From positions 1 to 51,280 of the IMG/VR virus record IMGVR_UViG_3300037155_000067: a stretch of DNA of 51,280 nt. One strand, written 5' to 3'. This stretch comes from a virus. The notes below the pieces were generated by a model that saw only the letters and a program-made list of their open reading frames with translations, had not been told where the DNA came from and searched no databases. The translations under genes were made by a program, and so were the position numbers. Position 1 is the stretch's first letter, and every line of letters starts with the position of its first letter. Positions 29,375 to 35,026 of the stretch are shown here, piece after piece.

Positions 29375-29620
29375 ATGAGATGTACCGAGTGCGGGAAGAA
29401 GGTAGGCGGGTTGTTTAGCGACGGGCGGTGTTTTGGGTGTCACCAGACAAACGTGGTGGTGCCGTTTGGGCCGGAAGGGGAAGAGAATCCAAAGGTGGAG
29501 CGAGTGGCGAAGCGGCATGCCAGGCGGATTGGCGAACCTGTGGACCACGAGAAGAAGGCACGGGATTACATAGCAGATCAGCAGTCAATGGAATTTCAGG
29601 TAGTGGGCTACTTTGAATGA
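29375..29620 (+). CDS. Zinc-ribbon protein, 3' end altered by insertion
   Basis: The frame starts MRCTECGKKVGGLFSDGRCF and has CxxC pairs (CTEC, CFGC), a compact zinc-ribbon, then a charged helical part. Its last seven codons (from QVVGYFE) lie inside the inverted repeat of the inserted cassette. Taking the cassette and one target repeat out restores a reading frame ending MEFHIGPPQESD with TGA at 30590-30592, for 83 residues. So the present C terminus is probably secondary. Whether the altered protein works is unknown. Confidence 0.6.
   Translation: MRCTECGKKVGGLFSDGRCFGCHQTNVVVPFGPEGEENPKVERVAKRHARRIGEPVDHEKKARDYIADQQSMEFQVVGYFE
29591..29598 (+). repeat. 8-bp target-site duplication, left
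   Basis: GAATTTCA immediately outside the left inverted repeat, repeated exactly at 30557-30564 immediately outside the right one, as expected from staggered cutting on transposon insertion. Confidence 0.8.
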
Positions 29621-30556
29621 CAACACGGCACATCATCCCAATTTCCGGTAAAGATTCGCTCGCGACCGCGATTTGGCAGACCGCGCACGAGCCTGAGTTG
29701 CCCTACGAATTTGCGTTCAACGACACGCGCGCGGAACTGCCGGAAACCTATGAGTGGTTGGCGCGCGTCGAGAAGGTGCTCGGCATCACAATCATCCGTA
29801 TCGGGAAATCGCTAGAGCAGGTGATTGACGAACAAGGCATCCTGCCGTCTCCGCGCATACGGTTCTGCACCGAACGGTCAAAGATTCGCCCGATGGATAG
29901 GTTCATCGGGAGCGACAACGCCATCGTCTATTTCGGCCTTCGTGCTGATGAACCCGAACGGGTGGGAGCATTCAAGACGGCAAAACTGACCCCGCGTTAT
30001 CCGCTCCGCGATGCTGGCATTGGCCTGTCCGTCGTCTATCGCATCGTGGAAGCACGGGAGCTGATGCCTCCGGCCTTCTTCTGGCAGAGGCTTTACGACG
30101 CCGTAGCGAAGCAAATGGGCGAGGTAATGGCGGTCGTGGAGTCTTGGCCCGCGTGGATGAAGGCGCGTGTGTTCGCGTGGCGCTCCCGGCCCAACTGCTA
30201 CTTCTGTTTTTTCCAGCGACGTTATGAGTGGGTCGGTTTACTGGAGTTCCACCCTGAGCTTTTCGACAGAGCGGAGGCGATTGAGCTTCGTGTCGGCAAC
30301 GGTCCTGAGTTGAGGCGATCCACTGGATTCCAGTGGATCGCAGAAGGCTACCCGCTCTCAAAGATCAGAGAGAACGCCGAGGCCATCTTCGTGAAGCGGG
30401 TGGCGGCCATCTGCAAGCTGATTAACGACGCCCGCCAAGGCGATCTATTTCAGGCTGCGCTTGATGAAATGGACATGGCGGGAACGTCGTGCGGACTGCT
30501 CTGCGGGAAATAAAACCCATGCCAAACAATGAACAAAATCAAAGTAGCCCACTACC
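29599..30556 (+). mobile_element. Transposase-less insertion cassette carrying a PAPS-reductase-like gene
   Basis: The 958-bp unit has perfect 18-bp terminal inverted repeats, GGTAGTGGGCTACTTTGA (29599-29616) and TCAAAGTAGCCCACTACC (30539-30556), flanked by the 8-bp direct repeat GAATTTCA on each side. The only gene inside is 29617-30513, whose ATG directly follows the left repeat. No transposase is present, so it fits the class called mobile insertion cassettes, which are moved by an enzyme supplied elsewhere. An 8-bp duplication and ends starting GG occur in several IS families (for example IS1595), but I cannot assign one. Excision in silico repairs the flanking gene. Confidence 0.75.
29617..30513 (+). 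CDS. PAPS reductase / DndC-like PP-loop ATPase
   Basis: 298 residues. The ATP-pyrophosphatase loop is ISGKDSLATAIW (9-20; a compact SGKDS rather than SGGKDS). RIRFCTERSKIRPM at about 80-93 matches the RxCT...KxxP site of phosphoadenosine phosphosulfate reductases, and YFGLRADEPERVG (105-117) their GxRxxES-like motif. NCYFCF (193-198) and a C-terminal GTSCGLLCGK add four Cys that could bind a metal or cluster. Family members activate or reduce sulfur or adenylate substrates, including enzymes of DNA sulfur modification. No dnd partners are present. It is the sole cargo of the cassette; its ATG overlaps the stop of the interrupted gene (ATGA), so it may be expressed by coupling. Confidence 0.75.
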   Translation: MTTRHIIPISGKDSLATAIWQTAHEPELPYEFAFNDTRAELPETYEWLARVEKVLGITIIRIGKSLEQVIDEQGILPSPRIRFCTERSKIRPMDRFIGSDNAIVYFGLRADEPERVGAFKTAKLTPRYPLRDAGIGLSVVYRIVEARELMPPAFFWQRLYDAVAKQMGEVMAVVESWPAWMKARVFAWRSRPNCYFCFFQRRYEWVGLLEFHPELFDRAEAIELRVGNGPELRRSTGFQWIAEGYPLSKIRENAEAIFVKRVAAICKLINDARQGDLFQAALDEMDMAGTSCGLLCGK

Positions 30557-30564
30557 GAATTTCA
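30557..30564 (+). repeat. 8-bp target-site duplication, right
   Basis: GAATTTCA, the right-hand copy, followed by the displaced end of the interrupted zinc-ribbon gene (frame to TGA at 30590-30592). Confidence 0.8.
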
Positions 30565-30750: not shown

Positions 30751-31353
30751 ATGGCACTTGTAAAATCAAAATTACAATTTGGAAGAGAGCCAACGGAATT
30801 CACCGATCTGCAACTTCATAAATTTTGGTCTAAAGTTGACTTCAGTGGTGAATGTTGGGTTTGGACTGCATGCAGAATCAAGGATGGCTATGGACTAGTT
30901 TTACTTGGGGGTTCTTGCCAACTAGCCCATCGAATCAGTTTTGTGTTATCGAACGGACCAATACCCCGCGGATTGTACGTTTTGCACAAATGCGATAAGC
31001 CGGCGTGCGTAAACATCGATCATTTGTTTCTCGGTACGCAATCCGACAACATGCGAGACATGCGAGCGAAGGGAAGAAACTCTCCTCCTAAAACGGGCGA
31101 CCAGCATTGGACAAGAATTCATCCTGATAAAGTCCCGCGAGGATCGAGCCACTATTTAAAAAATCATCCCTGGTTGGCAGCAAGAGGAGAACGGAACGGA
31201 CAAGCAAAACTCACCTCCCAACAGGTCGCAAAAATTCGATTATTACATGCGGCTGGAAACGATACTTTTAGAAGTCTTGGCGTAAAATTCAAACTCGACC
31301 GAAGCACTATTGGCGACATTGTTCACCGCCAAATTTGGAAGCACGTTCAATGA
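30751..31353 (+). CDS. HNH homing endonuclease
   Basis: 200 residues. FWSKVDFSGECWVWTACRIK (25-44) opens the domain, and the HNH site reads LHKCDKPACVNIDHLFLGTQ then SDNMRD, with His79, Asn88, His91 and Asn100 in the expected order and Cys81/86 probably holding zinc. The C-terminal 50 residues (AKLTSQQVAKIRLLHAAGND, LDRSTIGDIVHRQIWKHV) form a helix-turn-helix that helps choose the target. It is free-standing, between small genes, and related to the copy at 34502. Its stop overlaps the next start. Confidence 0.85.
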   Translation: MALVKSKLQFGREPTEFTDLQLHKFWSKVDFSGECWVWTACRIKDGYGLVLLGGSCQLAHRISFVLSNGPIPRGLYVLHKCDKPACVNIDHLFLGTQSDNMRDMRAKGRNSPPKTGDQHWTRIHPDKVPRGSSHYLKNHPWLAARGERNGQAKLTSQQVAKIRLLHAAGNDTFRSLGVKFKLDRSTIGDIVHRQIWKHVQ

Positions 31354-34501: not shown

Positions 34502-35026
34502 GTGACTCCACATCAACGTAATCACCGGTTCACCGGCATCAAAACGTTTGAGCAAAGTGTTGAAGATTTTTGGACAAAAGTTGATTCTAAAAATTTAGCT
34601 GATCCAACGAAATGCTGGGAGTGGACTGGGTTCAAAACACCATTCGGACACGGTGTAGCAAGTTTCCAAGGGAAACAAATCGGAGCGCATAGAGCCTCTT
34701 TTTTAGTTCACCACGGTGCCATTCCAGATGGATTATTTGTTTGCCACCGCTGCGATGTTCCAGCATGCGTAAATCCAAATCATCTCTTCCTTGGGACTCA
34801 ACGCGACAACATGATCGACTGTCGTGACAAAAAACGGTTGCGTGGATTTATTACAAGCCCAGTCCGAGGAGAGGCGACAAAGCATAATAAACTCAACGAG
34901 ATTCAGGTTCGTGAAATCCTTACCTCGAAAGATGCCGGTCGGACATTCGCCAGAAAATTCAAAGTTGCAGAAGCGACAATTTCAAGAATTCGAAATCGAG
35001 TGAACTGGAAGCATATTTCGGTATGA
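34502..35026 (+). CDS. HNH homing endonuclease
   Basis: GTG start; 174 residues. FWTKVDSKNL and CWEWTGFKTPFGHGVASFQG lead to the HNH core HRCDVPACVNPNHLFLGTQR then DNMID, and a C-terminal helix-turn-helix (KLNEIQVREILTSKDAG, VAEATISRIRNRVNWKHI). Same family as 30751. It lies precisely between portal and the following gene, whose ATG overlaps its stop, so it is a free-standing insert in the head operon. AT-richer than its neighbours, a sign of recent arrival. Confidence 0.85.
   Translation: MTPHQRNHRFTGIKTFEQSVEDFWTKVDSKNLADPTKCWEWTGFKTPFGHGVASFQGKQIGAHRASFLVHHGAIPDGLFVCHRCDVPACVNPNHLFLGTQRDNMIDCRDKKRLRGFITSPVRGEATKHNKLNEIQVREILTSKDAGRTFARKFKVAEATISRIRNRVNWKHISV

Follow-up and report, generated by a model that had tools for sequence, protein, structure and literature searches.

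Mobile insertion cassettes (MICs), transposase-less derivatives of insertion sequences (IS) that carry passenger genes, have been described in ISsaga (PMC3129680), and MIC231 of Bacillus cereus is the subject of papers cited in PMC2266710. An IS which carries passenger genes in addition to its transposase is referred to as tIS (PMC3129680, PMC9330008). Among the described passenger-carrying elements of the MIC/tIS kind is also a plasmid example (PMC5444012). We analysed a stretch of 51,280 bases, an IMG/VR virus record which we refer to as the window. It contains, at 29591–30564, a unit which an earlier note had considered 'not a described element', a view that the existing descriptions of MICs contradict. 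We interpret the unit as a non-autonomous MIC of the IS1 family, which would be served by a transposase acting in trans and would express its SspD-like cargo gene by coupling to an operon. We assign this reading a probability of about 0.87.

Structure and phage context of the unit

The element and the gene that received it have the following features.

29375–29620, + strand: recipient ORF, small zinc-ribbon-like protein (two CxxC, by eye)
29591–29598, no strand: left 8-bp target-site duplication GAATTTCA, exact match to the right copy
29599–29616, + strand: left terminal inverted repeat GGTAGTGGGCTACTTTGA, 18 bp
29617–30513, + strand: cargo gene, 298 aa, SspD-like PP-loop protein (PAPS-reductase superfamily) according to profile matches and motif alignment
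30529–30556, + strand: extended right end ATGAACAAAATCAAAGTAGCCCACTACC, 28 bp identical to the ends of L026 and L051
30539–30556, − strand: right terminal inverted repeat, 18 bp, 100% complementary to the left one
30557–30564, no strand: right 8-bp target-site duplication GAATTTCA, exact match to the left copy

Between the duplications, whose outer edges are the exact limits of the finding (29591–30564), the unit comprises 958 bp with a single ORF. The perfect 18-bp inverted repeats and exact 8-bp direct repeats around one gene, as seen in the earlier note, were confirmed. About 0.002 perfect 18-bp arm pairs within 3 kb are expected by chance per 51 kb, and the 8-bp direct repeat adds a factor of 1.6e-5 to this expectation. 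No further copy of GGTAGTGGGCTACTTTGA was found in the window at up to three mismatches (0 in shuffles). The unit encodes no transposase, and tblastn and genome searches for an IS1-type transposase elsewhere in the record gave nothing significant. The earlier description of a transposition product without transposase was thus right.

When the flanks are joined with one copy of GAATTTCA, a continuous frame of 83 aa is restored which ends in MEFHIGPPQESD and a stop codon. The insertion replaced the final nine residues of the recipient ORF (HIGPPQESD) by the element-encoded QVVGYFE. The stop codon TGA of the interrupted ORF overlaps the ATG of the cargo gene (ATGA). Within the cargo gene there is a perfect 13-bp hairpin at 30315–30341 (GCGATCCACTGGA / TCCAGTGGATCGC, 1-nt loop).

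The window encodes a terminase-like protein, tail fibre proteins and a RecT gene, which supports its phage nature; in the window and the sister contigs taken together, the phage context consists of terminase, portal, helicase and tail genes. An ORF for an HNH endonuclease (PF13392) is located just downstream of the cassette at 30751–31353, and the ORF at 34502–35026 looks similar to it by eye. Both are possibly homing endonucleases. Comparison of the window DNA with sequenced phages gave no match, nor did comparison of the restored recipient protein with phages, and no relatives of the cargo protein or of a 759-aa window protein were found in viral contigs. For the cassette of contig L025, a search for relatives of its phage returned only that phage itself and hence no empty site.

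The repeat family and its transposase

The exact 18-bp repeat GGTAGTGGGCTACTTTGA is present in 51 stretches of viral DNA. At least 118 bacterial stretches contain its 16-bp core, many of them from Acidobacteria and Verrucomicrobia MAGs, although the exact 18-mer was found in only two of 297 sampled genomes from the phylum of one repeat-bearing bacterial genome. Of 46 convergent repeat pairs, a count in which one element is entered twice (L037 and L044), 27 are flanked by exact 8-bp duplications, as compared with 0.0 after permutation of the partners. The duplications have an AT-rich middle. No exact duplication is seen in the other 19 pairs, which may have decayed, recombined or been mis-paired. 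The repeats enclose other genes and also a transposase; re-use of this kind had been predicted in the earlier note.

These data bear on the possibility that a phage gene has the repeats as a resident regulatory structure, which does not move, and that the direct repeat arose by chance. No empty site is known for the window insertion, as the searches revealed no related phage, and this would be compatible with a resident structure. For the family, this explanation is refuted by the 27 exact duplications, found around different genes in unrelated contexts where about none are expected, and for the window unit we consider it extremely improbable.

Copies of the repeat number 11 in L187 (IMGVR_UViG_3300047576_000022) and seven in L188 (3300037150_000037), both of them phage-like contigs with a length of about 40 kb. 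Several of these flank different small genes, including by eye a methyltransferase-like and a radical-SAM-like ORF. A sister branch with the ends GGTAGTGTCTCAGTTTGA or GGTAGTGGGTCAGTTTGA is commoner in viral contigs among the matches listed. The sister branch L207–L286 (ends GGTAGTGKSTCAGTTTGA), widespread in viral contigs and accompanied by 8-bp duplications, includes elements with and without transposase. For 21 sister-branch pairs the selection had allowed one mismatch in the duplication, but the duplication was exact in all 21; a gene start at the repeat is rare among them.

Smaller members of the family, among them the window unit, have no transposase. In larger members there is a gene for a protein of about 280–320 aa (shorter in some copies) that combines an HTH with an IS1-type DDE domain. 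Its best NCBIfam match is transpos_IS1 (NF033558) with E-values of 5e-14 to 8e-17, the scores being below the curated IS1 cut-off of NCBIfam. With Pfam DDE_Tnp_IS1 (PF03400), the proteins of L037 and L048 are above the gathering score, that of L066 is just below and that of L166 below. Plasmid relatives of the transposase with 51–53% identity are annotated as 'IS1 family transposase'. They are accompanied by further genes and lie between GGTAGTG...TTTGA ends that have perfect 8-bp duplications. An IS1595-type parent, our first guess, was dropped because the transposase matches IS1 best. Duplications generated by IS1 elements are usually 9 bp long, with a range of about 8–10 bp, into which the 8 bp of this family fit.

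Over its right 28 bp the window unit is identical to the ends of L026 and L051, which both carry a transposase, and a transposase like theirs would be expected to recognise the unit. Autonomous relatives with passenger genes are L026, L037, L048, L051, L066, L160 and L166. Bacterial or plasmid elements with these or related ends (L066, L053, L166, L105 and L204) carry as passengers, among others and judged by eye, Clp/SppA-like proteases and a Fic-like protein, and also a RES/Xre pair adjoining an annotated IS1 family transposase.

Re-use of a cassette is seen in L004 and L021, where the same cassette with a methyltransferase gene is present at 95.5% identity over 555 bp. The homology extends no further than the outer edge of the left repeat, and the flanking sequences are unrelated; dN/dS of the methyltransferase gene is 0.38. 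The two copies differ in their right ends, and cassettes may therefore be re-cut. In L004 (9945–10519) the right repeat directly follows the stop codon, and in L021 (1210–1914) it is found about 150 bp later. These positions give a hint of the way in which cassettes form or are trimmed.

The window unit might alternatively be a decayed autonomous element, that is, a transporter IS with transposase and cargo which lost the transposase by deletion and is now immobile. The autonomous relatives with passengers, and the ends which they share with the window unit, are in accordance with this. Its cargo gene, however, spans the unit from end to end, the ends are intact and the duplication is exact. 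Several unrelated one-gene cassettes have an equally compact layout, and the cassette of L004 and L021 is found at two sites that are unrelated. We regard such a decayed element as improbable, and movement of the cassette in trans as most likely.

Cargo genes and their proposed expression

The earlier assignment of the cargo as 'PAPS-reductase-like' could be sharpened to SspD-like by profile matches. The PADLOC profile for SspD (PDLC02782) matches at 5.4e-52 as compared with 2.3e-4 for DndC, Pfam PF01507 at 2.8e-6 and phrog_424 at 1.6e-28. SspD proteins of Acidobacteria are 33–40% identical to the window cargo over residues 4–223 and are encoded in ssp operons, together with SspA, SspB and SspC in L200 and with SspB and SspC in L201. 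Like the operonic proteins, the cargo contains the PP-loop SGxDS and the CT...K, CxxC and C-terminal cysteine motifs, and it resembles the SspD of the SspABCD system for DNA phosphorothioation. It differs from this system in an insertion of about 30 residues, which is absent from the operonic SspD proteins compared, and in the lack of SspA, SspB and SspC in the cassette. As the gene stands alone there, we call the cargo SspD-like and do not regard it as an Ssp system. A sequence search for solved structures returned only a weak match to PptA (E 0.051), which was not used. The AlphaFold model, computed from a three-sequence alignment, had a mean pLDDT of 37 and was discarded.

Among the other one-gene cassettes in phages, L024 and L034 encode PAPS-reductase-like proteins, L025, L004 and L021 DNA methyltransferases, and L014 a phrog_12600 protein. 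The window protein shows only 22–31% identity to the cargoes of L034 and L024, and the PP-loop cargoes therefore do not derive from recent copying of a single cassette. What these genes probably have in common is a role in DNA modification or counter-defence.

The earlier note had also considered that the cargo protein takes part in the movement of its own cassette. It is the only gene in the unit, and PP-loop cargoes occur in three separate cassettes (window, L024, L034), as might be expected in that case. The identical ends, however, also surround methyltransferases and other unrelated genes such as that for the phrog_12600 protein, and the larger relatives encode an IS1-related transposase, which makes such a role unnecessary. 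We know of no recombinase role in the PP-loop family and consider this possibility very remote.

At 12 cassette junctions, the cargo ATG is located 0–4 nt past the repeat. The cassette is unlikely to contain a promoter of its own for the cargo, with 0–4 nt between repeat and ATG. Two reading frames of the repeat GGTAGTGGGCTACTTTGA contain a stop codon, TAG and TGA respectively, and at 11 of the 12 junctions the remaining frame is also closed, within 17 nt. In control genes, such closure was found in 55% for ATGA starts and in 22% for the AAAATG type. As a sign of coupling it is suggestive only, being common by chance for the ATGA type. A single gene directly after a stop-carrying repeat suggests, from the sequence arrangement, promoter-less and translationally coupled expression. 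By inspection, the cargo is codirectional with the neighbouring genes in seven of eight cassettes, the exception being L034.

At the right end, all eight one-gene cassettes considered (window at 30529–30556, L014, L021, L004, L024, L025, L034 and L045) have an ATG at most 14 nt before the repeat, in a frame that is open through the repeat into the flank. This ATG could be a restart site. It could also be merely part of a conserved end, because transposase-bearing elements have it as well.

We propose that the window unit is composed of two transposon ends (GGTAGTGGGCTACTTTGA, with 8-bp target duplications) and a single gene captured between them. The ends would be recognised, and the unit moved, by an IS1-related transposase which a host IS or a copy on another phage supplies in the same cell. 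Here, the unit would have inserted close to the 3' end of a small gene of the phage. The stop codons of the repeat close two frames and the ATGA overlap the third. The cargo gene has no room for a promoter or ribosome site of its own and thus would probably be transcribed from the phage operon, with its translation coupled to the interrupted upstream gene. Its product, a predicted stand-alone SspD-like ATP-pyrophosphatase with sulfur/adenylate chemistry, would most likely act in nucleic-acid modification or counter host defence.

Comparison with described elements

No account of IS1-type cassettes with single DNA-modification genes in phages was found in the literature searched, which consisted mostly of papers available without subscription. 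The recurrent use by phages of a one-gene cassette, with a start codon 0–4 nt after a stop-carrying repeat, may be new. More tentatively, and with rather less than even odds, we suggest a cassette economy of phages, in which an IS1-type transposase acting in trans would move single accessory genes (SspD-like enzymes and DNA methyltransferases) between unrelated phages. The repeats would double as frame-independent translation couplers, with stop codons followed by ATG at the left end and an outward-reading ATG at the right end. If this is true, promoter-less genes would be expressed wherever they land, and phages would have a route to swap counter-defence or DNA-modification genes that requires neither homologous recombination nor a transposase of their own. 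The 18-bp repeat would serve as a sequence handle for listing such cargo genes, many of them of unknown function, whose products would be candidates for a role in anti-restriction or modification.

The Tn3 family generates duplications of 5 bp. TIMEs, which are Tn3-derived elements (PMC4133298), resemble the window unit in being mobile non-autonomous transposons which form mosaics, but they belong to the Tn3 family whereas the window unit is IS1-type. The tIS class has the same ends and duplications, and L026, L037, L048, L066, L160 and L166 fit into it, as do the plasmid elements L203–L205 with related ends; the window unit differs in having no transposase. The window unit corresponds to MICs, in which IS-family ends surround one or more passenger genes, a transposase is absent and activation by the cognate transposase is expected in trans. 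The window unit has IS-family ends, a passenger without transposase and a duplication of the parental length. While MIC231 belongs to the IS231 group of the IS4 family and is found in Bacillus, the window unit combines IS1-type ends, phage hosts and a start codon which abuts the repeat.
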